This document shows, one piece after another, positions 10,365-47,420 of a stretch of 64,000 bases of DNA. Made by a program: the position numbers and the translations under genes. The notes under the pieces were generated by a model that saw only the letters and a program-made list of their open reading frames with translations, was not told the origin of the DNA and did no database searches. The stretch covers positions 275,196 through 339,195 of the forward strand of contig JACKKX010000005.1 in NCBI GenBank assembly GCA_024236215.1, in the 5' to 3' direction. Positions within the stretch are counted from its first letter, which is position 1. Every line of letters starts with the position of its first letter. Origin of the DNA: Novosphingobium sp. (GTDB lineage: Bacteria > Pseudomonadota > Alphaproteobacteria > Sphingomonadales > Sphingomonadaceae).

Positions 10365-10367
10365 AGC

Positions 10368-11954: not shown

Positions 11955-11965
11955 GGCACCGGCCT

Positions 11966-27789: not shown

Positions 27790-27810
27790 GATCTCGTACT
27801 AGCCTGAAAA

Positions 27811-27830
27811 TGCGTCAAAATTGGTCGCAT
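27811..27830 (-). promoter_or_regulatory. island operator copy 2 (best match to consensus)
   Basis: TGCGTCAAAATTGGTCGCAT has arms TGCGTC and GTCGCA around seven bases. It is placed 22 bp upstream of ATG 27789, exactly as copy 1 is placed before its gene. Confidence 0.7.
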
Positions 27831-27922
27831 GATCAAAACCTGCAGCCAGCTGTAAGACTGAATTCGATCCAACTCTAACTATCCCCAGACAGAGCATTGA
27901 TGTATCGCAAGCTCACGATCAC

Positions 27923-28501: not shown

Positions 28502-28573
28502 TAGTGATACTCCAGCTTCAAGGCGCAGCCCCGCAGGGCTAGGTCAAACAGGCGTAGAGCAGAGCCAAGGCTT

Positions 28574-29350
28574 TCATGCAGGCTTTGCCCTCTTGGATTT
28601 CGCTTTGCTTACCTGCCCAGAGGGACAGACACGAACTTGTAGATGGCCGGTTTCAGTTCTTCGCGATTCGAAGCCCCCTGCAGTTTCAACCAAGTCGCTC
28701 AACTTGCCCTGACCATATGTTCTGGGATCAAAGTCGGAGGCAAGCGCAGCAAGCCGCTGCCCAACCCGACCTAAAGGCACCCAACCGCCTTCATCATCCA
28801 ACTGCAAAATAGCGGTTCGGATCAAAGACATCGCAGCCGTCGGTGGCTTCTTAACGTTGGCTGGACGGGCATCCTGACGCTCTGGCTCATCTAACGCTGG
28901 CACCTCGGGCAGCAGATTTTCAGTGTAGATGAAGCGACGACATGCTTGTCGAAAGCTTTCTGGCGTTTTCTGCTCGCCAAACCCGTAGACATCGATGCCC
29001 TGTTCCCGGATGCGTGATGCCAAGCCCGTAAAGTCACTATCTGAAGATATGAGACAAAAGGCGTCAAACCGACCTGTGTGCAACAGGTCCATGGCGTCAA
29101 TGACCAAGGCGATATCCGAGGCATTCTTCCCGCTTGTGTATGCAAAGCTTTGGTGCGCCTTGATCGCATGAGTTGCGAGCACCTCTGCCCAGGATTTCAG
29201 TCTGGTTCCGGAGAAATCCCCGTATATGCGCCGAACGCTTGCTTCACCGATCTTCGCTATCTCCTCAAAGAGACGGGGTGCGATCCGCGAGGAAGCGTTA
29301 TCCGCATCAATCAATACGGCAAGTCTAGGGGTGCGCTGTTCAGTAGCCAT
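28574..29350 (-). CDS. NYN-domain RNase with C-terminal LOTUS/OST-HTH domain
   Basis: A 258-residue protein. The N-terminal NYN (PIN-like) nuclease domain has LIDADN with Asp15 and Asp17, SDIALVIDAMD (Asp79, Asp85) and SSDSDF (Asp104, Asp106), the acidic set expected for metal-dependent RNA cleavage. Residues about 172-245 form an OST-HTH/LOTUS domain (LIRTAILQLDDEGGWVPLGRVGQRL), which binds RNA. A lysine-rich tail follows. Proteins of this architecture are widespread; whether this one is housekeeping RNA decay or defence is open. Confidence 0.85.
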   Translation of the reverse strand: MATEQRTPRLAVLIDADNASSRIAPRLFEEIAKIGEASVRRIYGDFSGTRLKSWAEVLATHAIKAHQSFAYTSGKNASDIALVIDAMDLLHTGRFDAFCLISSDSDFTGLASRIREQGIDVYGFGEQKTPESFRQACRRFIYTENLLPEVPALDEPERQDARPANVKKPPTAAMSLIRTAILQLDDEGGWVPLGRVGQRLAALASDFDPRTYGQGKLSDLVETAGGFESRRTETGHLQVRVCPSGQVSKAKSKRAKPA

Positions 29351-31516: not shown

Positions 31517-31545
31517 GAAATTGACACTCTAACAAACCGAACCAA

Positions 31546-34500
31546 TCACGGTTCGAGCTTGATCTGCAATTCTTCGAGAGCAGCCACGTCGACGCCCTCG
31601 TCAACGAGACGGTCAAGATAGGCCAGCAGGTCGTCTTGCCGCGGCTGCCCAAATGCCAGCCGATAGAGTGTCAGGCTGCGTTTGAGCCAACGTAGCCGCG
31701 TGTTTTCTCGACTCATGGGTAGCATTGGTACGCGGCGCTCGACCTTTACCGGACCATCAAAAACCCAGTACGGAACAAGTTCGGATTTGCTCGTGGTAGC
31801 GCGTTTGGCCGCGTTGAACATCGCCTCCCATGGGTCTGCCGGTGGCTTTGTAGACGTGCGGATTGCATCGGCATGAGCTCTGGCAACATTATGCCGGACC
31901 GCATGTCCTTTGAACCGGTGAACACGCCCTTCCCTTTGCTCAAGATCGACCGGGTTCCCTGGGAGATTCCAATGATAGACTCGATAGCAATAGGGGTGAA
32001 AATCCAAGCCTTCCTGACCGATCGATGTCGTGGCCAGCACAAATGGTCTGAAAGGCGAATTGAACGCATCTCGCACGCTTCCGAGCCGCACGGTTCCGCC
32101 TTCCTCGTCCTTGTATTCAGCTAATCGCATAGCGAAGCGACCGCGCATCCTGATGGACGGATGAAAGACGACCTTGCCGTCCTCAACTCCCACATCATCG
32201 ACATCAATCTGGGAGGGGCGGACTGACAAGGCGTGGGTCATGGCCGCGGCCACGCCGGCGACACGTTCACGCTCGGAGCTCCCGGCCAAACCCTCGCCTT
32301 CGACAAGATAATGGGCGTACTCGTCGAGCACTGACTGGAGGTTGTGCTCGACACCATGCGTCAATGCGCTGCGCCAGTAATGGTCATCGCGCTCTTGCCG
32401 TAGGAGAGCAACGGCGTCGTGCTGATTGAAGAGCGCCCGAAAACCCCAAGCGATTGATGCCGCGGCGTCCATCAAATGCGGATCATCCCACGCCAGTCCT
32501 GGCGCAATGCGATGGAGCGCGCGCAATGCACAGACAGCCGGACTTCCCAAGGCTACATCGACCAGTAGATCCAGCGTGTCGTTGTCGAGCTCCCCGAGCG
32601 ATGCCTCGGTTGCAGTCCTCCGCAACTCGGCGATGTGCTCTCGAAAGCCTTCCTCCTGGATCGTCCATCTGTAACCGAGATACTGCAGCCACCCGGAAGA
32701 TTTGGTCTTCAACAATACGTCGATCGTTGCCGGTGTGGACCATTCTGCATCCCTGCCAGCTGCTTCTTCGCCATTTTCCTTGGCGAACAGGTGCCCCAGG
32801 GCAGTACGAATACGATCCGCAATCGCTGCGCGCATTTCTTCAACCGACAATTGTTCCGGAGCGCCAGAAAAGACGCTTAACGGATCACAGATTCTGGCCA
32901 GTGTTGGTGACGGATAGATCAGGTGCAGCGCGCGCATCGCAGCCGGGCGACCATCTACCAGCTTGAACTGAAGCGGACGGCGGCGCGTGGCTTCCGAGTA
33001 GGACCGAACCACCGACGCTGCCCCCATCCGCCGTTCGGCTTCGTAGGAAAGCAGTGCGGCAAGCGCATCGGGCACCATCTGCCATGCAGAAAAGACAAGC
33101 GCTTTCGTAGCCGGTGTGCCCTCAGATGCCGGGCCATAATATGTTACCGCCGGGGGAAGCCAGAGGTGCTGATGGAGCCCTGAATCAAACAAATCAGCCA
33201 TCAATGCTCGAAGGCGCCCATTAGCCGGATCAATCGGCTGATAAGCTTCGACCTGTTCGCGACTGATGCCCAGCGCCTGCGCATCGCTCAACGCTGATAT
33301 CAGGGCCGGGTTCGAATTTGCGGCTTTATCCTTCAGGCGATGCTTTAGCGTGTAATCACGCATAAAATTCAGGAGGTAAGGTGCGGACTTCCAATACTCG
33401 ATGATTTCGCGCGCATCGACGGCTCGCGCGACGCGGGCAAACGCTTCGGCCTGATGAAGATCGGCAGGTGCGAGCGGCACGTTGATCGATGGCTCAGCCA
33501 GCATCGAATCTCGTTCAGCAGTACTGCCAACGCGCTCGGTGCGCGCCATAACGCGCTTCAGTGTACGCTGAACCTTGTTGCGCGCGCGCTTGGCGTCGGT
33601 CGCGCTTGTCGGCAGTTGCTGGAGTAGCTTACGAAAGCGGCGCATTTCGCGGTCAAGTTCGACCTTGATGGTCGCCCCCTTATCGCGCCCGTAGAGGAAC
33701 TCGATTGTTTCAAGGAAGTCCTCGTAATGATCGCCGTCATCAGGCTCATCGCCCGAGAGCGTGAGCATCTTGTAGGGAGTTGCGGAGAGTAGAAGGGTGC
33801 GTGCGCTGGCTGTATCGTCAGAATAGTCAAACAGGGCCCTTGCGAGCTCGGCCGGCTCCCCCTCACCGCGCAGCAATTCCCGAAAACGTTGGAATTCGTC
33901 GAGGATGATAAGATCTGGCTTAAGCGCACTGACGCAAGCGTGCGATAGCTTGCTCCGTAGCGCCCCGATTACCTCGTTTCGTTTCCAACGCTTCTCGTCA
34001 GGGTATGTTGGCTGGCGGCGCGGGAACAGCGAGATCATTTCGTCGATTGCCGACAACAGCGATGCATCTTGACGGACTGCGTCGTGGAAGTTCGAAACTA
34101 TCGTCGGATCAATACCCTCAAGTGACATGCTACCGACGCACGCATCCCAGCGTCCATTCCCGGCGTCCACTTGCAGCGCGTTTCTGAGCGGCGTGAACGA
34201 AAAGCCCATGGCTTCAAGCAGGCGATGCAAGAGCGCCCGTTCTTCAACGACCCCGGTGGTAGATCGAAGATTGAACGTGGTTCCAGGCGTGAGGCTGATG
34301 AAATTGACCTTGTTCGCAGACAGATCTTGTTCGCCGCGAAGCTGCAATGGCACCAAGGTCATGCGAGTGGGCAAGGCCATCGCACGCTTTCCCAATACAT
34401 TGAGACGATTGAGATTTTGCGCGGCGATGGCCTGATTGGAGCAGATGTAAAGAATGTCGATCCGCTTTGATCGATTCCACAACGCTTCGATGGTCTTGGC

Positions 34501-34671
34501 GATCACCCCGCGGGCAACCATGGTTTTGCCCAGACCCACTTCGTCTGCGACCAGGAACTGACGCACGGGATCAGCGCCATGCAAACGGTCGAACACATAC
34601 TCTACCGTGCGACGCTGAAAGCGCTTGAGTTGAGCGAGTGCGGCGCCCGCGTCGAACGGCTCATTCTCCAT
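31546..34671 (-). CDS. SNF2-like superfamily 2 helicase/ATPase of the defence operon
   Basis: A 1041-residue protein. VADEVGLGKTMVA (Lys49) is the Walker A loop, LIILDEFQRF (Asp258-Gln261) the DEAH-box equivalent, and LLLSATPYKML motif III. The C-terminal RecA lobe has ATTSIGQEGLDFHPYC and LEQREGRVHRFKGH, matching motifs V and VI of SNF2-type helicases. It probably translocates on DNA for the operon's nucleases. ATG 34671 overlaps the end of the phospholipase-D-like gene by 11 bases. It is the last gene of the five-gene operon starting at 43577. No methylase or BREX/DISARM DUF1998 partner is seen. Confidence 0.85.
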   Translation of the reverse strand: MENEPFDAGAALAQLKRFQRRTVEYVFDRLHGADPVRQFLVADEVGLGKTMVARGVIAKTIEALWNRSKRIDILYICSNQAIAAQNLNRLNVLGKRAMALPTRMTLVPLQLRGEQDLSANKVNFISLTPGTTFNLRSTTGVVEERALLHRLLEAMGFSFTPLRNALQVDAGNGRWDACVGSMSLEGIDPTIVSNFHDAVRQDASLLSAIDEMISLFPRRQPTYPDEKRWKRNEVIGALRSKLSHACVSALKPDLIILDEFQRFRELLRGEGEPAELARALFDYSDDTASARTLLLSATPYKMLTLSGDEPDDGDHYEDFLETIEFLYGRDKGATIKVELDREMRRFRKLLQQLPTSATDAKRARNKVQRTLKRVMARTERVGSTAERDSMLAEPSINVPLAPADLHQAEAFARVARAVDAREIIEYWKSAPYLLNFMRDYTLKHRLKDKAANSNPALISALSDAQALGISREQVEAYQPIDPANGRLRALMADLFDSGLHQHLWLPPAVTYYGPASEGTPATKALVFSAWQMVPDALAALLSYEAERRMGAASVVRSYSEATRRRPLQFKLVDGRPAAMRALHLIYPSPTLARICDPLSVFSGAPEQLSVEEMRAAIADRIRTALGHLFAKENGEEAAGRDAEWSTPATIDVLLKTKSSGWLQYLGYRWTIQEEGFREHIAELRRTATEASLGELDNDTLDLLVDVALGSPAVCALRALHRIAPGLAWDDPHLMDAAASIAWGFRALFNQHDAVALLRQERDDHYWRSALTHGVEHNLQSVLDEYAHYLVEGEGLAGSSERERVAGVAAAMTHALSVRPSQIDVDDVGVEDGKVVFHPSIRMRGRFAMRLAEYKDEEGGTVRLGSVRDAFNSPFRPFVLATTSIGQEGLDFHPYCYRVYHWNLPGNPVDLEQREGRVHRFKGHAVRHNVARAHADAIRTSTKPPADPWEAMFNAAKRATTSKSELVPYWVFDGPVKVERRVPMLPMSRENTRLRWLKRSLTLYRLAFGQPRQDDLLAYLDRLVDEGVDVAALEELQIKLEP

Positions 34672-36508
34672 TGCCGGACTCCTCCAGTACGGCGCGGAAT
34701 GTCTGCCAGAGAACCCGAAACTCTTCGGGTATTGGGTCTGCGCCTTCCGTATTTGCCTCTGTTAGCCTGGTCATCAGACGATCGACCGCATCCAGGCGCC
34801 CATCCTTGGCGCAAAGGGCCCGGACGAGTTCCTCGAGTAACGGCTCATCGTCGGCCACGGCCATGGCCCACCCTGCCCCACTGCCGCTTCCATCGGCAGC
34901 TAATGCCGCCGCAAACGGATCACCGAGTGCGGTGAGCAAGAGCCTCAAATAGCGCAGGAATGTTTTGCGATCATTGATCACCGATCGCATAATCGCTGCG
35001 TCGCGCTCGGCCGGTAGGCCCTCAATCGGCAAGCCGGTGCTAAAAAGGACGCTTTGACCGGTTGCCCGTTCCTTCATTTCAATCGCCAGAAAACGTGTGA
35101 CATCGGCGAGCGCAACCACACCCAAGTCCAAAGCCTCACCGGCTTCCAGTGATGCCTGGGCATCCCTGGAGTGCCCTTCCCCTCGGGTTATCGGCCAAAC
35201 CCGCACTCGGTTGATGTTCGCAAGTGCAATGCCTCCAGCAGGCGGAATTAGCCACATGCGCCAATTGCCTGGGCCCTCGGTCACGTCTGCTTCACAACGG
35301 ATGCTGAGGCATCCGCGGGCAAGTGCCCGCCGGGCATCAAGGAGCACCCTTTCAGCAGCACGCTCGGAGGCGTCAGCAGCAGCCAATTCTCCTGGAACGT
35401 AAGCACGAGTGAGACGCCCGAACCCGTTCTCGCCGAGAATGGCCTCGATCGACCCCAGCTTTGACGTCTTACCCGTGAACGTGATGAAGAACTCGACATT
35501 TCGCCCTGAGATGAACGCGGGTTTAGTCGCATTGCCGGAGCCTAAGGTCAGACGGGTATCCCAGCTGTGCTCAGCGACAATTATCTTGGCGTGGAGCCCT
35601 TCCAAAGCTCCCGAAATAGCTTCCTCGCCATCTTCACGCTCGGCCATTTCATCCAGAACCGCGACATGTGCGAAATCGTCGAGTGTTTCGGCAGCTATGC
35701 AGGCAAGCTGATCGGGCCTGCTTATCAAGATTTCGGCGGAGCGGCGCGCCTTTCCAGCCAACATCGATAACGCGTCATCGTCGCAAAATGGCGAGACCAC
35801 ACCGATGCGCGTGCATTCCGGCGGCTGCCAAGGCCGTCCTCCCAGCCCGTTGACTGCGAACTCAAATTTTTCACAGGCATCGGGCAATGACCACTCGGCG
35901 TAGCGCATGTCTTCGGCGAGTTCCGAAGTGAGCGCCCGCTGCTCATCCGGGACCGGGCTGACCGCGAGATCTGGGAGCGCGGAGAGCAACGCGTACAACG
36001 GACGGTTCTGGGCCTTAGGCTGGCGAGTGCGGCGTCCGTCGAGACGCACGGCTATGTCCCATGACCTGTCGCGCGTAAGATTGCGTGACAATACGAGCAC
36101 CCTGAGAACATCATCGCCCTCTTCGTCCAATGGCTTGAACCGCAGCGCCCAGATTTTCGGATGGAAGCTACCCTCTCCTGGCGCTTGGACTTCGACGATA
36201 ACCTTCTCAAGCAACGAGCAAAGTCGAGATTGTTGGGCAAGCCCCGCATGGATTTGACCTGCCTCGGCGAAGACGGCCAAGCGCCCCGAAATCCGTTCTG
36301 CTCCCTCGAGCAGAGCAATAGGATGCTGCAGAATTTCCTCTCTATTGTCGGCGGCAAACAATGCCAGGCTGACCGGCACGGCTAGCGCCGTCTCAAAATC
36401 GAGTGAGAATGTCGTCGCCACGCCGGCATCGAAGCGATACCCGGGGGGAGCCTGAAGGCTATCGCCGTAGAGAAGCCGGTTTTCGGGATCGAGCGTCGCC
36501 CTGTTCAA
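34661..36508 (-). CDS. phospholipase-D-fold (HKD) nuclease-like protein of the defence operon
   Basis: About 615 residues with two HKD-like halves. The first has FHPKIW (His116, Lys118) followed by VLSRNLT and SWD; the second has LHAKII (His306, Lys308) followed by LTLGSGNATKPAF. Two such halves form one active site in PLD-family nucleases. The best start is TTG 36508, which overlaps the TGA stop of the DUF6361 gene and has AAGGA upstream; it gives the compact LDPENRLLYGDSL start. Helicase plus PLD-protein pairs occur in DISARM and Mokosh defence systems, but with other partners. Confidence 0.75.
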   Translation of the reverse strand: MNRATLDPENRLLYGDSLQAPPGYRFDAGVATTFSLDFETALAVPVSLALFAADNREEILQHPIALLEGAERISGRLAVFAEAGQIHAGLAQQSRLCSLLEKVIVEVQAPGEGSFHPKIWALRFKPLDEEGDDVLRVLVLSRNLTRDRSWDIAVRLDGRRTRQPKAQNRPLYALLSALPDLAVSPVPDEQRALTSELAEDMRYAEWSLPDACEKFEFAVNGLGGRPWQPPECTRIGVVSPFCDDDALSMLAGKARRSAEILISRPDQLACIAAETLDDFAHVAVLDEMAEREDGEEAISGALEGLHAKIIVAEHSWDTRLTLGSGNATKPAFISGRNVEFFITFTGKTSKLGSIEAILGENGFGRLTRAYVPGELAAADASERAAERVLLDARRALARGCLSIRCEADVTEGPGNWRMWLIPPAGGIALANINRVRVWPITRGEGHSRDAQASLEAGEALDLGVVALADVTRFLAIEMKERATGQSVLFSTGLPIEGLPAERDAAIMRSVINDRKTFLRYLRLLLTALGDPFAAALAADGSGSGAGWAMAVADDEPLLEELVRALCAKDGRLDAVDRLMTRLTEANTEGADPIPEEFRVLWQTFRAVLEESGNGE

Positions 36509-37683
36509 CGCTTGAGATCCTTCAGATGGCTCTGTGCGATTGACCAGCGAAACTGAAGCCTTCCAGTTCCGGATGCTCCTTGCCAACGGTCCCGCGCACT
36601 CTTGTTTGCAAACCGGGATTGCCCCTTCTTGAGCCTCCTCTCACGCGTCATGACGAGCGCGCTTGCTGCGTCACGATTGCGGCCTAATCCTCCCTCCTTC
36701 CGCACCAAGGCCACCCATTCGGTGACAAACCGCTTGGCCGGTTCGAGGACCGAATGTCCGGTATGACGTGTCTCGTGCCAGAAATCGTCCAGCGACCAGG
36801 ATGCCAATTCCTTGGTATCGAGTTCGTCGCTCCATTCGGTGAGTGCGGTCTGGTAGCGCTCGATCCAGTCCTCGTTTTCCCGCAGCTCACTCAACAGCAG
36901 ATTGTAGAGCAGCGCGGCGCCATGCATGACGCCCGAGAATATCCTGGCATGTTCAACCAGCACTCGTGCCGGGGCGGGAAAATCCGCCATATGCGGATGC
37001 AGCCATATTGCATCTGCCTGTGCCCGATCGCTCCGACTTGCCAAATAGGTCAAGAGGCTGTGGGGATGGCGATCGACAAGGCGATCGACAAGAAAACTCG
37101 CCTCGTCCGGTTCCAGATCGAAATCGACGGTGTCAGGCCATCCCTTCGGTGGCTGAGGCATGCGGTCGTGCCACAGATGTCGATGCCGCTGTGCCCCGCT
37201 CATGTCGTCTTCGACGTGATCCTTACCAGTATCCTTGGGCCAGTGCGGCAAGGCGGCAAAATAGGCATCAATCGAACCAGGAAATTGCCGGATGCCCCAG
37301 CTTTCCAGTCCCGACCAATAGATACTGCTCGGCAGGCGCTTGAGCTTCTCGCCAGCGTCCTTGCCAATGATGCCAACGGCGCCAGGCGCGCCAGACATCA
37401 GCGCCTGCCCAAGTTCGATTTCCTTCTGACGTGCTTTGGCTGCAATGTCTCGCGGACTGAGATGAGACGGCAGGGAGTCGAATATCCACGGAATGAACAG
37501 CATGTACCGCAGCCGCGTGTGAATGGTGCTCGTTCCTGGAAAAAGATGATCGGCTATGGAATCCCTGATCGCGCCAAGCCCAAGCTCGTCGCGGCTATCC
37601 TGCTCACGGAACAGGTCCATCAACCGCTGCGCACGATCGCGTTCTGTCTCGTCAAAATCGACCCAGCCAATTGCTGAACTCAT
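36505..37683 (-). CDS. DUF6361 family protein
   Basis: About 392 residues. The N terminus SSAIGWVDFDETERDRAQRLMDLF and the segment DELGLGAIRDSIADHLFPGTSTIHTRLRYMLFIPWIFD have the pattern I associate with DUF6361. There is no obvious catalytic motif; the C-terminal part is rich in Arg/Lys. ATG 37683 is chosen over an upstream TTG. It sits 25 bases after the AddA-like gene and overlaps the next gene by four bases, so it is an integral part of the operon. A substrate-recognition or adaptor role is a guess. Confidence 0.7.
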   Translation of the reverse strand: MSSAIGWVDFDETERDRAQRLMDLFREQDSRDELGLGAIRDSIADHLFPGTSTIHTRLRYMLFIPWIFDSLPSHLSPRDIAAKARQKEIELGQALMSGAPGAVGIIGKDAGEKLKRLPSSIYWSGLESWGIRQFPGSIDAYFAALPHWPKDTGKDHVEDDMSGAQRHRHLWHDRMPQPPKGWPDTVDFDLEPDEASFLVDRLVDRHPHSLLTYLASRSDRAQADAIWLHPHMADFPAPARVLVEHARIFSGVMHGAALLYNLLLSELRENEDWIERYQTALTEWSDELDTKELASWSLDDFWHETRHTGHSVLEPAKRFVTEWVALVRKEGGLGRNRDAASALVMTRERRLKKGQSRFANKSARDRWQGASGTGRLQFRWSIAQSHLKDLKR

Positions 37684-37708
37684 TCTTAGCGCCAAGTGCT
37701 AGTGCCCC

Positions 37709-40700
37709 TCAGATCCCTCTGCCCAGCGTCAGTTCGCCGGTCTCTGTCCAGAAAACGGCGACGCCATCAACGGACTTGCCACCCATTGCCCCAACTGCAT
37801 CAACATAGGCTGCCAGTTGCGGCCAGTAGCGTTCAAAGCGCAGCGCAGGATTTGAGACCGCCCCGCTCTTGTGATCCACGATCATGAAGCCGCTGGGACC
37901 TTCAGCGATGAGATCCAGGATGATGCTTTGGCTCCCACCATCTGAAAGAGGAATGTCGATCGGTTGCTCGACATGCAGTTGCGTATAGCCAAGGTCGGCG
38001 AGAGCCTGACGCAGAGCCTCTGCCTGCTGCACAAGAAATTCCACTTCGGCATCGAGAATGCGGCAATGCTCGTGAACCTTATGGGATAGATCAGGACGGC
38101 AGAGGAGAATGCGCAGCGCTTCGTGGATCGCCGTGCCCCTATCGGTCGCCTGCACGAGGTCGGGTCCGGCAAGCATGACACCTGGTGCGATCGCACGCGT
38201 CTCGATCTGAGAAGGAAGCGGCCGTGACGTTTCAGTTGCCTGCGAGGGGCTTACCACAGATGCCATGGCGTCGATCGGGCGCCGCTCCAGGGCAAATCGC
38301 AGCTCGCGGTCGGACGCGTCGAGATGAACCTTGTTCTCAGCCTCGAACGAAGCCGGCAACTCCTTGCTGCAGATCGTCATGCGCGCAGGAAATTCTTCGG
38401 CGCCGACGCTGATCTGGTTACCCTGAAATCTGATGCCGCAGGCGTCATTCAGAAGGCGGCGGGCAGTGATCGGCAGAGGCGGATCAACCTTCTCATCGTC
38501 CTGCGGCCATTCGATTATCAGGCGATCCCGCGCACGGGTCAGGGCCACGTAAAGCAACCGCCTCGCTGTTTCTTCGGACTCCGGATGGAGTTCATGAAGA
38601 AAGCGATCGGTCGCTTCAGGGGCGGCGAATTCCGGAGCATAGGCGAGCGTTGCTTCCTCGATCACATGATCGAGATCGTCGAACCCCGGAAACTTCGTGC
38701 TGAAGGTCCCGGCACGGGGGTCGAGCTTGTGGTCGAGCCCGCAGACAACGACGATTGGCCATTCACGTCCCTTGGATGCGTGCCAGGTGACGATCTCGAC
38801 GCCGTCGGCTTCACTGCCTGAAGGGTTAGGCCGCAGATCTTCGCCTTTGAGACCGACCTTGTTCTCAAGCCAGCCGAGAAAGACGTTAGCGCTCTGCCCA
38901 TAATAGCCGGACGCTTCGCGCATGTCGCGGTGAGCATCCATGAATGCTGCGGCTTCCGCTTCGAACCGGAGCAGGTCTGCTCTCATCTGGGCTGGGTCAT
39001 CGAGCCTGTCGCACCAGTCGCGAAGCCCCGCGACTTCGATGACTTGGTGAACCAGACGATCAACCGGTGTCGCAAGCGAGTCTGGCCAAAGTCTCTGCAG
39101 CGCAGTCAATTCAGGCGTGTCGATGCGGCCTTGCTCGGCAAGCGCCCTGATCGCGTCCGGAAGCGCTGTCGCCCCAGGACCAAGCGTCGCCGTACAAATC
39201 GCGGCATGGCTGTCCGCAGGATCGACGGCGAACCGCAGGGCAAAGCACGCGGCCTGGACGATCTTGCTCTGCCACCAGCCACCTTCAGCCACGCGAACCG
39301 GCAGGCCGAGGGACCGCAGTGCGCTGGCATAGCTCGCGCAATGGCTATGGGTGGGGCACAGGACCGCGATGTCTCTGGGCTCCAACGGCCGCAAAATCTT
39401 CGTATGCCTGTCGATGATAGTCACATGATCGTCGGACAGCAGGGAGAGAAGGCGATCCGCGACGAAATGCTGAGGCTTCCCGCCCGAGCGCGCGCCGCGC
39501 TTGTTAGCCAGTTCTATGATCTCAAGCGCGGTGTCATGTCCGGTGGGGTTCTGCGCGGTGAGCGAAGTGTAGTCATCGCCGAAAAGGCAGGGGCCGAGCG
39601 CGTTGACGAAATCCATGATCCGCGGATCGGAACGCCAGTTCCGGTTGAGCGGGCTGGTTTCAAATTGCTTCGTAAGCGCGACGGTCAGCCGTGGGTCCGC
39701 ACCTTGAAAGCCCATGATGGCCTGCTTGGTATCTCCGACGACGAGCGAGCGCTTCGCTTGCCGCGCCAGGGCCCACAGGAACGTGAACTGGATCGGGTTG
39801 GTGTCCTGGAACTCGTCGACAATGACGCAGTCTACCTCGTCCATGATCGCGGCAAGCACGCCGGGCTTGTCATCGAGGATCCGCGCGGCGTTGGTGACCA
39901 TGTCGCTGAAATCGATCACGCCGAGTTCCCGCTTGCGGGTCTCATAGTCGGTCATGGCCGATTGGGCGCCTTCCACGAGTGCGCGCGCATGAGAAACCGC
40001 ATCTTCGAGCGGACCCGGATGATAGACCAGTGTGTCGGCCGCCGCCATGACTGCGGCGGCCAGGTCATCGTAACCATCAGGCGTCGGACTACCGCGCTTG
40101 GACTGGCGGAGATCACGCAGCCGCTGCCAGAGCTTCCAGTCCTTCCCGCCGGTCGAGAGGAGTTGTTCGGCTTGCTTCAAGGCGCGGAAATTATCCCGAA
40201 ACGCCGTCTTGGCCGCGGCACTTCCAGCGTCGACCGCCAGCGATCGCGGAAAGGCGAGAAGCAGTGCGTCGACGGCCTTTTTCAAGCCTGCCGCCAAGGT
40301 CTCTGGCACCCCGACCGGTTGGCGATATCCTTGCCTGATCGAGGACTCGACGAATTCGGCCATCGCCGGGTCGCTTCCCCGCGACCCAAGCGTTCGCAGG
40401 AGTGCAATCACGCCGAGCAACGTCTTGCGGAAGCTGTCTTCCGCCGTGTCGTCCGAGGTGAAGCTACCCCGGTAGCCATAGGCCCCGAGGTTACGGGAAA
40501 GCTCGCTTAGCGCCTGGTTTTCCTCGATCGAACGGCGGATGAGCAGGTCCTGCTCGTCCTCGGCGATGAGACGTTGCTGCGGCGAAGAGCCTGCCGCAAA
40601 GGCATGTTCAATCAGCAGTCGGCGTCCAAGGCCATGGATCGTAGAAACATAGGCTCGTTCAACGGCCAAAGCCGCTTGCAGATTGCCGTCAGCAATCAGT

Positions 40701-40876
40701 GCTCCACGTATCCTTTGACGAAGTTCCCCAGCCGCGGCCTCCGTGAAAGTGACGGCCAGGATCCGCTCTGGCCGAACTTTGCCGTCGCGTACCCACTGAG
40801 TGAGGGTTTCCTGGATGTGATGGGTCTTGCCAGCCCCTGCACCGGCTGGAACGATCGAAAGCTCAGTCATCTTCAT
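37709..40876 (-). CDS. AddA-like UvrD-family helicase with C-terminal RecB-like nuclease
   Basis: About 1055 residues. Helicase motifs in order: VPAGAGAGKTHHI (Walker A), ILAVTFTEAAAGELRQR (Ia), IVDEFQDTNPIQ (II), GDTKQAIMGFQGAD (III), TWHASKGREWPIVVV (V) and YVALTRARDRL (VI). The C-terminal nuclease has GTAIHEALR, ILDLIA, IVDHKSG and YWPQLAAY, the intact H-D-DxK-Q set of RecB-type nucleases. It overlaps the upstream AddB-like gene by 14 bases. This is the AddA half of an AddAB-like DNA-end-processing pair, placed in a defence operon rather than being the housekeeping recombinase. Confidence 0.85.
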   Translation of the reverse strand: MKMTELSIVPAGAGAGKTHHIQETLTQWVRDGKVRPERILAVTFTEAAAGELRQRIRGALIADGNLQAALAVERAYVSTIHGLGRRLLIEHAFAAGSSPQQRLIAEDEQDLLIRRSIEENQALSELSRNLGAYGYRGSFTSDDTAEDSFRKTLLGVIALLRTLGSRGSDPAMAEFVESSIRQGYRQPVGVPETLAAGLKKAVDALLLAFPRSLAVDAGSAAAKTAFRDNFRALKQAEQLLSTGGKDWKLWQRLRDLRQSKRGSPTPDGYDDLAAAVMAAADTLVYHPGPLEDAVSHARALVEGAQSAMTDYETRKRELGVIDFSDMVTNAARILDDKPGVLAAIMDEVDCVIVDEFQDTNPIQFTFLWALARQAKRSLVVGDTKQAIMGFQGADPRLTVALTKQFETSPLNRNWRSDPRIMDFVNALGPCLFGDDYTSLTAQNPTGHDTALEIIELANKRGARSGGKPQHFVADRLLSLLSDDHVTIIDRHTKILRPLEPRDIAVLCPTHSHCASYASALRSLGLPVRVAEGGWWQSKIVQAACFALRFAVDPADSHAAICTATLGPGATALPDAIRALAEQGRIDTPELTALQRLWPDSLATPVDRLVHQVIEVAGLRDWCDRLDDPAQMRADLLRFEAEAAAFMDAHRDMREASGYYGQSANVFLGWLENKVGLKGEDLRPNPSGSEADGVEIVTWHASKGREWPIVVVCGLDHKLDPRAGTFSTKFPGFDDLDHVIEEATLAYAPEFAAPEATDRFLHELHPESEETARRLLYVALTRARDRLIIEWPQDDEKVDPPLPITARRLLNDACGIRFQGNQISVGAEEFPARMTICSKELPASFEAENKVHLDASDRELRFALERRPIDAMASVVSPSQATETSRPLPSQIETRAIAPGVMLAGPDLVQATDRGTAIHEALRILLCRPDLSHKVHEHCRILDAEVEFLVQQAEALRQALADLGYTQLHVEQPIDIPLSDGGSQSIILDLIAEGPSGFMIVDHKSGAVSNPALRFERYWPQLAAYVDAVGAMGGKSVDGVAVFWTETGELTLGRGI

Positions 40877-43577
40877 TGTCCGTAAGCGCCACCGAGGGGT
40901 TGATGTCATCGCGCATGAAAGCGGTGATCAACGGACTGTCTTCCAGCGCATAGGTGCCGAGCGCGGCGGAGCGCTGGAAGAACTTCTCGTCGGCTGTAGT
41001 GTTGGTATCGAGGCGGCCCGCCTTCAGAGCATCGAACCGCGCAGAAATGAGCGCCAGCGCATGCTCGGCAATATCGCCCGCAACAAGTTCGACCTCAGCG
41101 CTATCGAACTCATCGATCCCATTGAGCAGGACATTCCCGTCGTTGAGCGTGTGATAGGCGACTGCCGGGAGCTCCGACCACCCGCTCAATACCTCGGCAA
41201 TGCGAGCAACGCCGTCGTTGCTGCGCTCGTCGAACCTAACGCTCATGCGCCGGTAGAGATCGACCTGTAGATCCCATCCCTTCTGGAGGCGCTGGCGCCG
41301 AGTGCCGGAACTGCTCTTCTTGTAATCCACGACGATCGGCTGCCCATCGGGAAGCCGCAACAAGCAATCGGCCTTGCCGTGCACCGGATGACCGAACAGC
41401 TCTCCCGACAGCCAGAACTCATTGCCCACGATCTCGGCGTCCAGAGATTTGAGGACGAGCGACCAGTGCTTCGCGGACTTGGTGATTTCTGCCTCAAGCG
41501 TGTTGCGTTCAACCGCCCATGCCGATGTCTGGAGAAACGGCGCCAGTGCGCGAATGCGATCGAGCAGTAGGTCGGGGACCTTGGTTTCGATCTCCTCGTT
41601 GGACGGATGCGCCTTGCCCGGCACAAACAGGCGCTCGAAAACCTCGTGCGCCAGGGATCCGCGAAGCATGACGTCAAGCGCCTCGGGCTGCCAGGAAACA
41701 TGTTCGGCGCCCAGCTCAGCGAGGAGCCACGCTAAAGGGCTGACCAGCAGCTTTTCGAGCCGGCTCGGGCTCTGCGCTCGCGCACTGCCGTCTTCTTTCT
41801 GGCGCAGCCCCAGAAGATTGAAGTCGAACGCATAATGAGGCGGCACCTCCGGCATCAGCGCCGGTTCGATCACTGGTCTGGGCTTCCACGCGACCAGCCT
41901 GTCCCAGATCGTCCCTTCACTATGACTCAGTGGCACGATCAGATCCTCCGGATCCTTGATCCCTTCCACAAGCCGCGAGATCAGCGGCAGGCTCGACGAC
42001 ACCGAAAGCGAACTGCCGCTGCGATCACGCTCTGACAGGATGAGGATAATCTGCTCGCTCGCTGCACCGATCTGGCGGGTGAAGAGCTCCAGCGCGGCAG
42101 TGAGTTGCTGCGCCTGCGATGGCAGCTGGATGCCGCAATCTTCGGCAATCGATGCAACTTCGCTGTCGAGGAAAAACGGATTGCCCGCGGGCGGTGATGG
42201 ATAGGCGCCGTCATTGAAACCCAGGACGAGAAGCTTGCGAAACGACCGCTTGGGTGTTTCGTGAGCCATCATCACCGAGATGCCACCGAGGAAGTAAGCC
42301 CCTCTCGCGGGTGGCGCAGCCTGGTAGGCCGCTGCCATCTGGATAGATTTCTCCAGTTCCGCTTCTGCCGCGTCGTTGGCATTGCCAAGGGCTGCGATCA
42401 GACGCGATGCCTGTTGCTTCGTTTCAGCGACATCCTCAGCGAGTGCCTCGTTGTCGCTGAGCAGCCTCTGGAAAGATCGAATCTGTTCCTTGAGTTGCCC
42501 GTTGGTCGAAGGCGATGCCGAGCGGATCAGGGCGAAGAGAGATGCCTGCCTGCCTGCAAAGTCACGAGCCTCTCTTGGCTGAAAGTCGCCACCCATAACG
42601 GCTGCCGCCAAGGCCGTTCCTACTTCTTCGGGCCAGCACAAGACGGGTGAACAGTAAAGCGATGCGAGCGCCATGGCGGGAGCTGGTCGGCGTCGGCATT
42701 GAAGGAAATGCAGAAGAGCCTCGCCGCCAATATTCCTCCGCTCGCCTACGCCAGGAAGCGACGATGCAACCAGACCCGCATGCGCAAAGGCCTCTGCCAG
42801 ATAGTGACCATATTCGGCACCCTGCGGGACGACGATGCCGACGTCGCTGGCTGGGAGACTTGCATCATCAGCCAGCCATCGCTGCACGATGGCCGCCGCG
42901 GCTTCGCATTCGGTCAGAGAGTCCCGGACCGAAAGTATGGCCAGGCTGTCGTCGGGCGGCATGGCCGGGACATCGGGATCCAAAAGATGGCGTTGTACAT
43001 GGCCGGCCAGAGTTGGTGCGGGCGCGCGCGCCAGTTTCCGGTCGGAAATCAGACGCACAACATCATCATCGTCTTCGCTCAGCCTGCCATGGTGATTTTC
43101 GATGTGTTCGAGGACCGCACGCTCCAGCGGGGTCAGGTGACCACAGTCTCGATCCCAGACGACCTGGAACTGCTGAAGAGCGTCGCTTGCCTCACAAGCA
43201 AGGAACGCCTTGAGCGTCGCAAGATCGGACGGAACGAGGGCATCGCTTCCGATCCACAGATTGCGCAGGGCATCCAAATGAAGGCGCGCCCTGCCCTCGC
43301 CCGGTAGCGCTTCAATCATAACCGATGTCGGTTCGAGATCACGCGTTGCCATCATGATGTGGCGGAGCATCGCCCCCACGGCACCGGTCGTCTGCTCAGG
43401 TGCTACCGCGAAGCTTTCCGCCCAAGGGACGCTGTCACCCAAGGGATCAAGGGCCTCGCGCAACGGCTTCTCGGTGGACTGAGGCAAGGCATAGAGGCTC
43501 CCCAGAAGCTGCGCACTGAGGGGCATGCAGCTCGTAAAGGGCGCTTCGCCGATCCGAAGATGGCAGTTCTCAAACAT
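40863..43577 (-). CDS. AddB-like PD-(D/E)XK nuclease
   Basis: A 904-residue protein with AddB-like organisation. The C-terminal nuclease shows SPSRLEKLLVSPLAWLLAEL, GSLAHEVFERLF, GKADCLLRL, IVVDYKKS and LQVDLYRRM. The N terminus lacks a Walker A loop, and the cysteines that hold the iron-sulfur cluster in true AddB are not visible (the first is Ser in LVSPL). It is therefore a divergent partner for the AddA-like protein. It is the first gene of the operon; an operator copy lies 60 bp before ATG 43577, overlapping the end of the WYL regulator gene. Confidence 0.75.
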   Translation of the reverse strand: MFENCHLRIGEAPFTSCMPLSAQLLGSLYALPQSTEKPLREALDPLGDSVPWAESFAVAPEQTTGAVGAMLRHIMMATRDLEPTSVMIEALPGEGRARLHLDALRNLWIGSDALVPSDLATLKAFLACEASDALQQFQVVWDRDCGHLTPLERAVLEHIENHHGRLSEDDDDVVRLISDRKLARAPAPTLAGHVQRHLLDPDVPAMPPDDSLAILSVRDSLTECEAAAAIVQRWLADDASLPASDVGIVVPQGAEYGHYLAEAFAHAGLVASSLPGVGERRNIGGEALLHFLQCRRRPAPAMALASLYCSPVLCWPEEVGTALAAAVMGGDFQPREARDFAGRQASLFALIRSASPSTNGQLKEQIRSFQRLLSDNEALAEDVAETKQQASRLIAALGNANDAAEAELEKSIQMAAAYQAAPPARGAYFLGGISVMMAHETPKRSFRKLLVLGFNDGAYPSPPAGNPFFLDSEVASIAEDCGIQLPSQAQQLTAALELFTRQIGAASEQIILILSERDRSGSSLSVSSSLPLISRLVEGIKDPEDLIVPLSHSEGTIWDRLVAWKPRPVIEPALMPEVPPHYAFDFNLLGLRQKEDGSARAQSPSRLEKLLVSPLAWLLAELGAEHVSWQPEALDVMLRGSLAHEVFERLFVPGKAHPSNEEIETKVPDLLLDRIRALAPFLQTSAWAVERNTLEAEITKSAKHWSLVLKSLDAEIVGNEFWLSGELFGHPVHGKADCLLRLPDGQPIVVDYKKSSSGTRRQRLQKGWDLQVDLYRRMSVRFDERSNDGVARIAEVLSGWSELPAVAYHTLNDGNVLLNGIDEFDSAEVELVAGDIAEHALALISARFDALKAGRLDTNTTADEKFFQRSAALGTYALEDSPLITAFMRDDINPSVALTDNEDD

Positions 43578-43635
43578 TCAAAATTACCCCCTCAAAAGTC
43601 GCCCTACGCCGCCATTCCACACCCTTGCCAGTGAA

Positions 43636-44631
43636 TTACGACAAATCTGGTCGCAGCATTGTCTGCGCGTCAGCTAGGCGCTTTTCCATCATGTCCTTGA
43701 GTGCGTCAGGGCCTTCAATCACCAGTTCGCCGGCCCATCCAAACAAGTGATTGGCGAGCTCGAATAAGCCGCCTGATTGGAAACGAACAATTAGTTCGTC
43801 GCCAACTTCTTCAAACTGTTGATGTGGATGGAAGCGCCAAGCCCGCGCCCGATCGACCGCCGGGGCCAGCACTCTCAGAACGATCTCGTGACCTGCCTCG
43901 TGCCAGATGCCGAAGCTGCGGGCCATCCAGGCATCCAGATCCCAATCCTCGGGAGGGCAGCCGACAAGCCCGCTGTCCCGAACGTTGCTCATCCGGTCCA
44001 GACGGAAGGTGAAAGGCGGATCGTCCCGGTCAGGCATCTTGCCTACCAGGTAGGTGATCGGTCCATGGATCAGGCCATAGGGAACAACCCTGCGCCAAGA
44101 GGGCTCGTCCGCCCAGTCGGGTTGATAATCGAAGTCGACACAATGGGATGCGAGAATAGCGGACTGGATCGTGGTCAGGTCTTCGGGCGAGGCAATGACG
44201 GCAGGCCCCGCTGCGACACGCGAGCGTTGGAGGCGGGTGAGCAGGTCAAGATCATTGTCCAGCCGACGCCTCTCGGCGCTGTCAAAGGCAATCTTGATCT
44301 TGGAGAGCAATTTCTCGAGCGCTTCGGTGTTGGCGGTGCCTTCGCGGCGCCCCGCTTCCACCACAGACTGAAGCGCGGCAACCTCGGACGAACTCGGCCT
44401 CGCATAGGCTCGTCCCGGGCTGTCTTTTATCCGAAATCGCTTGATCCGACCATCAACCGTTTCTTCGAGGTCGAAATGAATCAGAATGACGTTGCGCATG
44501 CGTTCGACCGTTCGCCGGTTGACATCAAGCAAAGCCGCCATTTCGTCGAGAGTCAGACCTTCGATGCTCTGCGTGAGCGCGTGCACAAGCTTCAATGTGC
44601 GATCGAGATTACTGAGGCGCTTGGTCATCAT
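43636..44631 (-). CDS. WYL-domain transcriptional regulator
   Basis: A 331-residue protein. The N-terminal winged helix-turn-helix (about 1-75) has LTLDEMAALLDVNRRTVERMRNVI. The WYL domain follows at about 160-230, with VVPYGLIHGPITYLVG in place of the classic W-Y-L line, and a C-terminal WCX-like extension (HHxFEEVGDEL-type strand, FWELxxHLFGWAGELVI-type strand). WYL regulators such as BrxR and CapW repress defence operons and respond to nucleic-acid or nucleotide ligands. It lies upstream of and on the same strand as the five-gene operon and has an operator copy 61 bp before its own start, so autoregulation is likely. Confidence 0.85.
   Translation of the reverse strand: MMTKRLSNLDRTLKLVHALTQSIEGLTLDEMAALLDVNRRTVERMRNVILIHFDLEETVDGRIKRFRIKDSPGRAYARPSSSEVAALQSVVEAGRREGTANTEALEKLLSKIKIAFDSAERRRLDNDLDLLTRLQRSRVAAGPAVIASPEDLTTIQSAILASHCVDFDYQPDWADEPSWRRVVPYGLIHGPITYLVGKMPDRDDPPFTFRLDRMSNVRDSGLVGCPPEDWDLDAWMARSFGIWHEAGHEIVLRVLAPAVDRARAWRFHPHQQFEEVGDELIVRFQSGGLFELANHLFGWAGELVIEGPDALKDMMEKRLADAQTMLRPDLS
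43637..43656 (-). promoter_or_regulatory. island operator copy 4, before the five-gene operon
   Basis: TACGACAAATCTGGTCGCAG is 60 bp before ATG 43577. It overlaps the last codons of the WYL regulator gene (stop at 43636-43638), so the regulator's own 3' end carries part of its neighbour's control region. Confidence 0.65.
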
Positions 44632-44691
44632 GGACCATTGCTAACTGCCTGATCGGCAGGAGCAAGTCAGTTCGACATCAATCCACACATT

Positions 44692-44711
44692 ATATGACCA
44701 TTTCTGTCGCA
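44692..44711 (-). promoter_or_regulatory. island operator copy 5, before the WYL gene
   Basis: Read on the minus strand it is TGCGACAGAAATGGTCATAT. It lies 61 bp before ATG 44631, matching the 60-bp spacing of copy 4, but in the opposite orientation. Confidence 0.6.
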
Positions 44712-44748
44712 AATTCGGACAGCATGCCTCAGGGCAGGCTGACCTCAT

Positions 44749-45528
44749 TCAGCCTTCTGGCCGTAGTATGTCTTGTACGGGCCCCGTTACGACACCCATG
44801 CGCAACCTGCGCGCTGCAAGTTGATCCCGCAGTGGTTTAGCCAGCCGATCAAGTTGAAGGCGAGCGCCTTTACCAACGGCGACAAGATCGCCGATCAAAT
44901 TTGAAATCGCACGCTCGCGATCAGCTGGTTCCAAGACCGCGACCAATTCGACCGTTTCGCGCACCACCCCGGGAACCTGACGACGAATGAAGACGGTATA
45001 ATCGATTACCTCCACATCAAGCACTTTGACGCTCGCGCTGGCGGACATGAATTGAGCACAGGCCTCGCGCGCAGCGCCCAGTTGTGCGCATGGCGCGAGA
45101 CGCATCGCTTCATCCCACGCTTTGCTGAGCGCCTTGTCCGCAAAGGATGCTTTGGGTCGCTTGCGTGCCTTAAACGCCGAATCTCGATTGGCTACTGCCT
45201 GGAAATCTTTGCAACTTGATAAGTCATTCCCGGCTTGCCTTACCTTCCTTGCGGACTGCGCGGCGCGCCTCCAGCTAATTAAGTAGAAAGTCGGGATTAG
45301 AGCGAGCCCAAAGGCGACAGTGCCATTTCCAACACCGCTATCCATCTCGGATGAAGTTAACATTGCGATAGCGAGAGCGACGGCAAAAGCCACCCCAACC
45401 GTCAACACCGCCCTTACGATGAGCTCCAGCAATGCGGCCACGAGCCCAACAGTGAGCACTAGGAGCACAGCCAGAAAGCAAACACTCACGACATTTATCA
45501 TTGCACGGCATCCCTTCCGTGCTCCCAT
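44749..45528 (-). CDS. unknown membrane protein with cytoplasmic C-terminal domain
   Basis: About 259 residues, no family recognised. There are two or three hydrophobic segments in the first 90 residues (about 12-38, 40-60 and 72-86), then a soluble, charged C-terminal part (KARKRPKASFADKALSKAWDEA; VVRETVELVAVLEPADRERAISNLIGDLV). ATG 45528 has AGGAG with good spacing; 45501 is an alternative. An operator copy lies 11 bp upstream, close to the ribosome site, so binding should block transcription tightly. It is divergent from the two-gene unit starting at 45634. Confidence 0.55.
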   Translation of the reverse strand: MGARKGCRAMINVVSVCFLAVLLVLTVGLVAALLELIVRAVLTVGVAFAVALAIAMLTSSEMDSGVGNGTVAFGLALIPTFYLISWRRAAQSARKVRQAGNDLSSCKDFQAVANRDSAFKARKRPKASFADKALSKAWDEAMRLAPCAQLGAAREACAQFMSASASVKVLDVEVIDYTVFIRRQVPGVVRETVELVAVLEPADRERAISNLIGDLVAVGKGARLQLDRLAKPLRDQLAARRLRMGVVTGPVQDILRPEG

Positions 45529-45558: not shown

Positions 45559-45633
45559 CGACAATCGTCCAGCGAAATTCGATTGGTCTTCAGCAAAGAT
45601 TTCCGCAATCTAGCACTTGAGAAGGGGAAATTG

Positions 45634-46311
45634 ATGGATCTCGATTTGCTGGAAAGACGCCAGGCTACCCTGTCGTGGCGCGACGACTTGATCATGGCAA
45701 TCTGGGACATCGTCAATCGTGCTGGAATGGAAGCCAAGCGCGGGGTGGAAGAGCGCCTTGCAGAAGCCGGTATTGTTGAGACGCTCTGGGATCCTGCCAG
45801 TTTTACTCGCGAAAGGGTCGACGTTGTAATGCGCGAGATGATCGTCAGCGAGCTTGAGAATCTGTTCGATGGCGCTGCGGAACAGTTACGTACGATCGCC
45901 CCCGGATACAACGCGCTCGCAGATGCGCTGCTGGAAAGCCTGAGCATGCTCCAAATGCCATCGCTGGAACCTGAGATCCAAGGTGAACCCAAAGTGGATG
46001 CACCTAAGGGATCCGCTACAACCTCCACGGGCAGACTAGCCACAATGATGGAGACCATCTCCAATCAAGATTTCGTGAAGAATGCGAAGGAATGGGGCAG
46101 CTGGGCGCTTTCAGTGGTCGGGGAGGCAAGTGAAGCCGCGAGTCAGAAATTGCAGAGCGGCGCGGGTCTCCATGATCGTCTCCGCCGTTCCGCACAGGCA
46201 CGGATCGAGACGGCGTGGATGGCTCCAGCAGGCGATCCCCCCCCACTGATGGGACAACTTATCGCAGTGGTGGAAAGCGTAGGCAACGAGGCGCGGAGCA
46301 TGGCCCTATGA
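45634..46311 (+). CDS. unknown protein, first gene of a two-gene unit
   Basis: About 225 residues, not recognised. Mostly helical and acidic, with Trp-rich segments (LSWRDDLIMAIWDIVNRAG; NAKEWGSWALSVVGEASEAASQKLQ). A weakly hydrophobic helix at about 150-165 might touch membranes, but there is no clear transmembrane span. ATG 45634 follows a GAAGGGGAAA ribosome site; the frame is open from TTG 45583. Its stop overlaps the next gene in ATGA, so the two products are probably made in fixed ratio. Under the island operator by position. Confidence 0.55.
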   Translation: MDLDLLERRQATLSWRDDLIMAIWDIVNRAGMEAKRGVEERLAEAGIVETLWDPASFTRERVDVVMREMIVSELENLFDGAAEQLRTIAPGYNALADALLESLSMLQMPSLEPEIQGEPKVDAPKGSATTSTGRLATMMETISNQDFVKNAKEWGSWALSVVGEASEAASQKLQSGAGLHDRLRRSAQARIETAWMAPAGDPPPLMGQLIAVVESVGNEARSMAL

Positions 46312-47420
46312 GCGATGTCGGAGGACTGTTCGTCGCATCACTCGATGCAGCAACGGGGATCAAGGCCGGGAAGCTCAGGATCGTAGGTTCCGTCGTCCGC
46401 CATGCTGCTGGCCCGCTCAAGGGCAAGATTCATTCATATCTTCAGGAAACCGGAGCCGCCGGAGCTTTGCTTGAGTCTGTGTCGGGAGCTGGCAGCACAT
46501 TCGCCAAAACGAGCAAGACGACAGGCAACCCGATCGCCGGAGCTGCGGTCGCTGGCACACAGTTGGCAAGCTCGCTCGGCGGGAATGTCCAGAATGAGAT
46601 TATTCGGCGCGGAGTTAATAGGGTCGAGAGTAAGGTCGATGCGCTGGCAAGTGGCATGCAGACGCTAAAAAATCTCGGCGTTGCCAATTTGGCGCTCAGC
46701 GCAACGGGAATAGGTGTGTCGCTGGTCGGGTTCGGGATCATGAATGCACGCCTATCGCGGGTCGAGCAAACTCTGGCTGCGCTTACAGAAAGTACAGACC
46801 GGATACTCGCTGCAGTGGAGCGCATTCGACAGGATCAGCTGGCCAGCGAATTCTCGGCATTGCGATCTCAGGTCAAGCTGTTTGAGGAAGCCTGGCTAAT
46901 GTCGAACCAGGAGCGCGCTACCCAGGTCTGGCTTGACGTCGCACAGGCGACGCGGCCACATCAGGATAGGTTTGAGGGGCGCGCGCGGGAATTGCTCTTC
47001 GCCATGCCGCCCGAATTTGATCTGGCGGATCCGATTATCGATGCACTCGCACTAGCTGGAGGCCTGCGGGTTGCCTGTCTCATGGCCTGCAACGAAAGCG
47101 AGGCAGCAAGCTCGGCGGCAAGTGAGAATGCTCGCCAGATCGAGGGATTGACCGGAACCGTAGGTAAAGTCGATCTGGTGATGGCACGAATTCCATCTTC
47201 CATCGACCGCGCTTCGCTGGAATGGGCGGGCGCCCTCGCCGCTGCTGTCGACGAGGCGGCACCTATCGCCCAGCGCTGGCGCCAGCGCGAAGCAATCGCC
47301 GCTACCCGCGCGGCGCCGCTTGCCCAACTTAAGCACGACGGCGTTACTCCGCGCGAGTGGTTGAAGGCTGCGCGAGAGGAGCAGAATGAGCCGATTCTAC
47401 TCCTGAAAGCTGCGGAGTGA
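46308..47420 (+). CDS. unknown protein with a membrane helix and coiled coil
   Basis: About 370 residues, not recognised. A Gly/Ala/Ser-rich N-terminal region (SVSGAGSTFAKTSKTTGN; GAAVAGTQLASSLGG) is followed by a hydrophobic segment at about 125-150 (LALSATGIGVSLVGFGIM), a coiled coil (RLSRVEQTLAALTESTDRILAAVERIRQ-type heptads), and a helical C-terminal domain. The layout resembles small pore-forming or membrane-effector proteins, but that is only by analogy. ATG 46308 overlaps the previous stop. Confidence 0.55.
   Translation: MSDVGGLFVASLDAATGIKAGKLRIVGSVVRHAAGPLKGKIHSYLQETGAAGALLESVSGAGSTFAKTSKTTGNPIAGAAVAGTQLASSLGGNVQNEIIRRGVNRVESKVDALASGMQTLKNLGVANLALSATGIGVSLVGFGIMNARLSRVEQTLAALTESTDRILAAVERIRQDQLASEFSALRSQVKLFEEAWLMSNQERATQVWLDVAQATRPHQDRFEGRARELLFAMPPEFDLADPIIDALALAGGLRVACLMACNESEAASSAASENARQIEGLTGTVGKVDLVMARIPSSIDRASLEWAGALAAAVDEAAPIAQRWRQREAIAATRAAPLAQLKHDGVTPREWLKAAREEQNEPILLLKAAE

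Follow-up and report, generated by a model that had tools for sequence, protein, structure and literature searches.

Results

Genes of the operon

We examined a candidate defence operon in a 64,000-nucleotide stretch of Novosphingobium sp. DNA (contig JACKKX010000005.1, positions 275,196 to 339,195; hereafter the window, with operon coordinates in its own numbering). Five tightly packed genes occupy the minus strand from 43577 down to 31546, and a gene for a WYL-domain regulator lies 58 bases upstream of them on the same strand. In the direction of transcription, with lengths in amino acids (aa) and E values of the matches, the features are:

43636..44631, minus strand: WYL-domain regulator (helix-turn-helix (HTH) + WYL + WCX), 331 aa; Pfam WYL 2.1e-14, WCX 1.1e-7
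40863..43577, minus strand: AddB-like PD-(D/E)XK nuclease, family AddB1, 904 aa; PDDEXK_1 1.5e-12
37709..40909, minus strand: AddA-like UvrD-type helicase with C-terminal PD-(D/E)XK nuclease, 1066 aa; UvrD 3.2e-48, PDDEXK_1 2.1e-5
36505..37695, minus strand: ZacA, DUF6361 protein, 396 aa; DUF6361 1.1e-77, PADLOC ZacA 1.5e-137
34661..36586, minus strand: ZacB, phospholipase D (PLD)-type (HxK) nuclease, 641 aa; PADLOC ZacB 6e-177
31546..34671, minus strand: ZacC, superfamily 2 (SF2; SNF2/DrmD-like) helicase, 1041 aa; DEAD + Helicase_C, PADLOC ZacC E=0, 1148 bits
31537..31556, minus strand: terminator-like hairpin at the ZacC stop, from a pattern scan only

A sequence-only reading of the same DNA had taken the five genes for one operon, which is borne out here. 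The longest open reading frames (ORFs) are spaced by -47, +13, -82 and -11 bases, and the spacings given in that reading (-14, +25, -4, -11) are reproduced with the inner starts 40876, 37683 and 36508. All operon genes are under purifying selection, with a ratio of nonsynonymous to synonymous substitution rates (dN/dS) of 0.04-0.17 in 17 of 17 gene comparisons; because four other records also preserve the block, at 93-100% DNA identity, the operon is real beyond chance. Domain matches and conserved catalytic motifs support the view that the products combine two motors and three nuclease sites, and the catalytic residues proposed earlier are intact (ZacC K49, AddA-like D1012/K1014, AddB-like D751/K753, and PLD His116/His306, which are H142/H332 in the ZacB numbering used here).

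The product of the WYL gene has the HTH-WYL-WCX layout beside defence genes, as in the BrxR type, with weak HTH matches (0.003 and above). Homologues occur in loci L002, L003 and L004, and none was found in L005. BrxR-family WYL repressors are reported to accompany many defence systems (PMC9122601). Promoter-like matches (5, with a mean of 3.3 and a standard deviation of 1.9 in shuffles) were not clearly above chance, and terminator-like matches (9, with a shuffle mean of 12.2) were no commoner than chance.

A catalogued ZacABC core

Genes 3 to 5 match the ZacA, ZacB and ZacC models of PADLOC-DB 2.0.0 over 391 of 396, 582 of 586 and 1012 of 1019 model positions. They are adjacent on one strand in the order A-B-C, an order repeated in Cronobacter, Halomarina and Haliscomenobacter. 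Because of these matches, the core of the operon is, as judged from its proteins, the already catalogued ZacABC system. It resembles the PADLOC entry in the near full length of its three proteins and in their order, and differs in that the AddAB-like pair and the WYL gene precede the core here and that the AddB-like protein has no PADLOC model (0 families matched). The sequence-only reading had described the set as belonging to no known system, and had named a database match of the same genes to a named system as what would speak against it; such a match was found for genes 3 to 5 only, and among the PADLOC matches listed no system combined all five genes. Its view that the operon is likely to serve in defence is upheld by the matches of the three proteins to the Zac models.

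ZacB has no Pfam match. We call it a PLD protein on the basis of two HxK motifs (H142/K144 and H332/K334) that are unchanged in all 15 proteins aligned, and of weak profile matches in PDB, all at the second HxK motif: 7clg at 0.003, labelled a putative helicase, which we take to be SauUSI; 2c1l at 0.14, labelled a restriction endonuclease, presumably BfiI; and 4rct at 0.17, labelled R.NgoVII. In ZacC, K49 and the motifs GLGKT, DEFQ, LSATP, GQEGLD and REGR are conserved in 30 of 30 rows, and the next-best PADLOC models after ZacC itself are PDC-M27C, DrmD, DpdE and BrxH. DUF6361 was confirmed in 0 of 9 stretches of viral contigs; phages yielded a single record, matching over 52% of the protein, and the E. 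coli DNA searched gave no match. No paper on ZacABC was found among the matches listed in open-licence PubMed Central (in the broadest case 20 of 504, none of them on defence), and a published description may exist elsewhere.

SauUSI and NgoAVII combine a PLD nuclease with an ATPase. The operon resembles them in pairing a PLD nuclease with an SF2 ATPase, with a weak ZacB match, but here these are separate genes, accompanied by a DUF6361 protein and an AddAB-like pair. SauUSI is reported to join a nuclease with an ATPase that translocates, and to shred DNA (PMC7913695). It would be tempting to suppose that ZacABC is likewise a modification-dependent (type IV-like) restriction system acting on modified phage DNA. 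This idea concerns the target, and is compatible with the reading set out below in which ZacABC opens and cuts DNA that the AddAB-like pair degrades. The weak resemblance of ZacB to the SauUSI and BfiI nucleases favors it, as does the lack of any methylase constantly beside ZacABC in the annotated loci examined; however, no domain that reads modified bases was recognised, and in Haliscomenobacter ZacABC (L029, 7474-21098) lies between type I modification/specificity genes and a restriction gene. Since ZacABC lies there between modification and restriction genes, methylation could also protect self, and we regard the type IV-like target as unlikely, if well worth considering.

The core is also distinct from other systems with related motors. 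The helicase core of ZacC is related to DrmD of DISARM (defence island system associated with restriction-modification) and to DpdE of Dpd, and more weakly to DrmA, and PLD nucleases are also found in DISARM and Dpd, but DISARM differs in that no DrmB (DUF1998) or methylase domain is present among the six proteins here, and ZacC scores 41 bits with DrmD and 34 with DrmA compared with 1148 with ZacC (NCBIfam DrmD, 47 of the 610 needed). Gabija shares a UvrD-type helicase (GajB), but membership was rejected: no GajA was found among the PADLOC matches listed, and the AddA-like protein has a nuclease domain of its own. Mokosh was likewise set aside, as no Mko model appeared among the matches listed (for the AddA-like protein, the best 25 of 53).

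An AddAB-like pair additional to the genome's own AddAB

The products of the first two genes of the operon are related to AddAB. The AddA-like protein matches the AddA chain 3u44_A at 1.3e-21, and the alignment profile of the AddB-like protein matches the AddB chain 3u44_B at 2.9e-4. As in AddAB and RecBCD, a UvrD motor and a nuclease are joined in one subunit and a second subunit bears another nuclease. The AddA-like Walker A K28, DEFQDT and D1012-H-K1014 are invariant in 14 of 14 rows, and the AddB-like D737, D751 and K753 in 10 of 10. The pair nevertheless differs from the classical enzyme: the AddA-like protein scores 162 bits with the AddA equivalog (707.65 needed) and 137 with the alpha model (860.75 needed), and the AddB-like protein, which is shorter, scores 13.1 bits with the AddB equivalog (903.7 needed). 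AddB carries iron-sulphur cysteines, whereas no cysteine stands in an invariant or near-invariant column of the 10 AddB-like rows. Among the best 25 of the 53 PADLOC families matched by the AddA-like protein, generic UvrD helicases (GajB, RTasHel) rank on top.

The genome's own AddAB, over the family cut-offs, lies at G000:C2:449925-456310, which rules out the pair as the only AddAB of this genome. It also bears on the suggestion that the pair works in repair, or shields the host from cuts made by ZacABC, instead of attacking foreign DNA. Homology to a repair enzyme (the 3u44 chains) lends this some appeal, but a genome with an AddAB of its own, the adjacency of such pairs to other defence systems, and the half of ZacA rows that have no pair (both described below) make it improbable.

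Two families of such pairs were distinguished, AddAB1 (that of the window) and AddAB2. The kinship of AddA1 and AddA2 is clear (hhalign probability 100), and that of AddB1 and AddB2 extends over a part only (hhalign probability 90.5, 314 columns).

Linkage of the pair to ZacABC

Gene order around ZacA was examined in named plasmids and genome loci; the plasmid records opened were 12 of 45 with ZacA, 10 of 10 with AddB1 and 10 of 64 with AddB2. AddAB1 stands with ZacABC in the window, Croceicoccus, Sphingosinithalassobacter, Aurantiacibacter and one genome of the class sample (L052), and AddAB2 with ZacABC in nine loci, including Bradyrhizobium, Mesorhizobium, Rhizobium and Agrobacterium. That the modules co-occur beyond this strain, on which the sequence-only reading depended, is thus borne out in several genera. 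ZacABC without the pair was found in Cronobacter, the archaeon Halomarina, Bradyrhizobium elkanii, Haliscomenobacter (a Bacteroidota plasmid) and Phaeobacter. Because ZacABC occurs without it in these, the pair is optional for ZacABC.

In a tree of 30 ZacA proteins, some rows of which have long branches, a same-strand upstream pair is present in 14 of the 18 rows of one mostly alphaproteobacterial clade and missing from four; by the AddAB models used, none of the other 12 rows has one. Thirteen of the 14 pairs are complete; the contig of L056, scored as AddAB2, breaks off within AddA. Between the AddAB2 pair and ZacA of L048 stands an 893-aa UvrD-like gene. The tree requires two changes for AddAB1 and four for AddAB2, of which the starred, well-supported branches force two and three. 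Two different families fill the slot upstream of ZacA, seemingly swapped in more than once. Methylocystis carries a pair of a third kind downstream, which fits neither of the AddB models. Outside the clade, L050 (scored as having no pair) has a gene at 9799-13188, ending 75 bases before ZacA, for a 1129-aa helicase that contains an RNase_H_2 domain and matches MkoA at 2e-38; here another helicase, probably a nuclease, stands in the AddAB slot.

Several loci call for comment. Among rows scored as having no pair, L057 (G728) and L059 (G724) have AddB2 on another contig of each genome, broken in G728, and L067 has IS21 next to a shortened ZacA. Left out of the tree were L002 (identical to the window), L013 and L058 (3.2- and 6.2-kilobase contigs), L047 (ZacA missed in ORF picking), L068 (broken ZacA), duplicate short loci and the four weak matches L060-L063 (E 1e-6 to 2e-4). 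In the L047 locus, seen in L091, the AddAB2 pair lies some kilobases from ZacC. As a separate observation, the AddAB2-ZacABC operon is directly preceded in L026, L065 and L066 by a further gene for a UvrD helicase and, after it, genes for multiubiquitin, ThiF and DUF6527, as judged from annotation in two plasmids and from position only in the third.

In the class sample, AddB2 was found in 7 of 308 genomes, and five of the seven carry ZacA as well, in three cases on a different contig; ZacA was found in 8 of 385 genomes, among which the 308 searched for AddB2 may not all be included.

Other partners of the pairs

AddAB-like pairs also occur without ZacABC. About 10 to 12 kilobases were examined on each side of the match in the 10 AddB1 plasmid records, and ZacA was found in none of them within that distance. 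In five of these loci AddAB1 adjoins a second trio, whose members are a roughly 404-aa protein, a PLD protein and an SF2 helicase; an insertion interrupts the trio in N. resinovorum, and in Paracoccus it lies upstream. The trio's PLD protein matches ZacB at 2.9e-8 and its helicase matches ZacC at 7.1e-15, with better matches to PDC-M27C, DrmD and BrxH; its 404-aa first protein is not recognisable as DUF6361/ZacA (hhalign probability 0.1). The other five loci are without the trio. Two of the 10 come directly after genes of BREX (bacteriophage exclusion). With a WYL gene and no ZacABC nearby, the pair is found in N. humi and Agrobacterium.

AddAB2 adjoins BREX genes in L084, L091 and L092. At 9233-18423 in L090 a SIR2-HerA pair comes after it, with a sacsin-like protein and an SNF2-NOV helicase as flanking neighbours. 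In a Desulfosarcina ovata plasmid (L087, 8513-18152), AddB2-AddA2 comes immediately after genes for a cyclase, E1-E2 and JAB, a set characteristic of type II CBASS (cyclic oligonucleotide-based antiphage signalling system); as far as the annotation goes, this operon has no usual effector gene.

It is conceivable, though in our view doubtful, that ZacABC and the AddAB-like pair defend the cell independently, as two systems with a common promoter and mobile island but no joint mechanism. ZacABC alone in Cronobacter, Halomarina and Haliscomenobacter, the pair alone with a WYL gene in N. humi and Agrobacterium, and AddAB2 beside BREX, SIR2-HerA and CBASS genes are what independence would lead one to expect. 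However, it would not by itself account for the upstream, same-strand position of the pair in 14 loci of the 18-row clade, for the filling of one slot by two families, or for the adjacency of AddAB1 to a second PLD-helicase trio.

Discussion

We consider it somewhat probable that this is a defence operon of the ZacABC kind with the AddAB-like pair as an accessory, regulated by the WYL protein and carried on a mobile island, in which ZacABC would open and cut foreign DNA and the pair would degrade it. ZacC, as an SF2 translocase, would move along foreign DNA; ZacB, as a PLD nuclease of the SauUSI kind, would cut it; and ZacA (DUF6361) is likely to be a recognition or bridging subunit. The AddAB-like pair would load on the resulting ends and degrade the DNA so that repair becomes impossible, and may add strength or help where phages block the host AddAB. 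The WYL protein would probably repress the operon until infection or DNA damage. The six proteins contain no methylase domain. The Zac proteins, the AddAB-like pair, their intact catalytic motifs and the repeated linkage of the two modules are established from sequence, and a joint mechanism is plausible.

Several points weigh against this reading. Fifteen of the 30 ZacA-tree rows have no pair and one further row has a pair of the third kind downstream; because, in addition, AddAB-like pairs occur without ZacABC, the two may act separately. The proteins of the pair lie far under the AddA and AddB equivalog cut-offs. In the order sample of 296 genomes (ZacA in 13, 12 of them strong; AddB1 in 3; AddB2 in 7), co-occurrence speaks in favour of the reading, with ZacA present in six of the 10 genomes that have an AddAB-like pair (3 of 3 with AddB1, 3 of 7 with AddB2), but the hypergeometric p = 2e-7 ignores kinship, was computed after the fact, includes both the window's genome and G178 with its identical island, and rests on scoring of at most three candidates per genome. 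The role given to DUF6361 is a guess: ZacA has no solved relative in the PDB profile search (best 0.1), and a structure predicted from four near-identical rows has a predicted local distance difference test score (pLDDT) of 35. Moreover, a search for an inverted-repeat operator around the WYL gene, in 44600-44760 and 43560-43660, gave 0 pairs of 8 or more.

More broadly, we tentatively speculate, with limited confidence, that AddAB-like pairs form a mobile, exchangeable degradation module common to unrelated defence systems (ZacABC, the second PLD-helicase trio, BREX, SIR2-HerA and type II CBASS), each system providing the sensing or first cut and the module destroying the DNA; ZacABC would have recruited it at least twice, from different families. 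If such a shared plug-in exists, annotation tools overlook one part of many defence islands, and the pair may serve as a reserve when phages inhibit the host AddAB or RecBCD. The recurring partner would also be a clue that ZacABC, which is catalogued and yet has no published mechanism that we found in the open-licence literature, makes or exposes DNA ends. In the available portions of the sources, a survey of nucleases associated with BREX names many auxiliary ones, with no occurrence of UvrD, AddB or RecB in its main text (PMC12839542), a preprint on YprA helicases describes PLD-bearing systems, with no occurrence of AddA or of words starting with DUF6 (PMC12458937), and a review mentions AddAB solely as a source of DNA fragments (PMC12948488). 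The set of AddAB-like pair and ZacABC was not found in the open-licence literature, and a published description may exist.

Mobility and neighbouring genes

Over the 24 kilobases at 25419-49468, the window agrees letter for letter with a contig from a second genome of the genus. The match breaks off near an IS110 transposase (24113-25270) on the left side, and on the right side at the edge of apparent conjugation genes, as judged by eye. Croceicoccus (96.8%) and Sphingosinithalassobacter (94.3%) share about 15 kilobases in one piece, the latter with further pieces, and in the 21-kilobase Aurantiacibacter locus the sole match longer than 300 bases is to 31545-43591 (93%), that is, the five genes and not the WYL gene. 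Exact words of 13-15 revealed no direct repeats of the tRNA-Lys end as ends of the island.

Upstream of the operon, a possible JukAB-type defence pair comprises a 401-aa protein at 46215-47420 on the plus strand (PADLOC JukB 1.2e-12) and, before it, a 242-aa ORF at 45583-46311 on the same strand, which had no match. On the other side, genes with REase-ARP, T5orf172 and NYN-LOTUS domains stand in a row at 27049-29350, with 0 PADLOC matches. Further along, 25456-26919 on the minus strand encodes a phosphatase-ADP-ribosylglycohydrolase fusion, relatives of which (33%, near full length) in Leisingera and Fuscovulum (L040, 8162-9730; L071, 7459-9021) have a WYL gene on one side and an AddB1 gene on the other.

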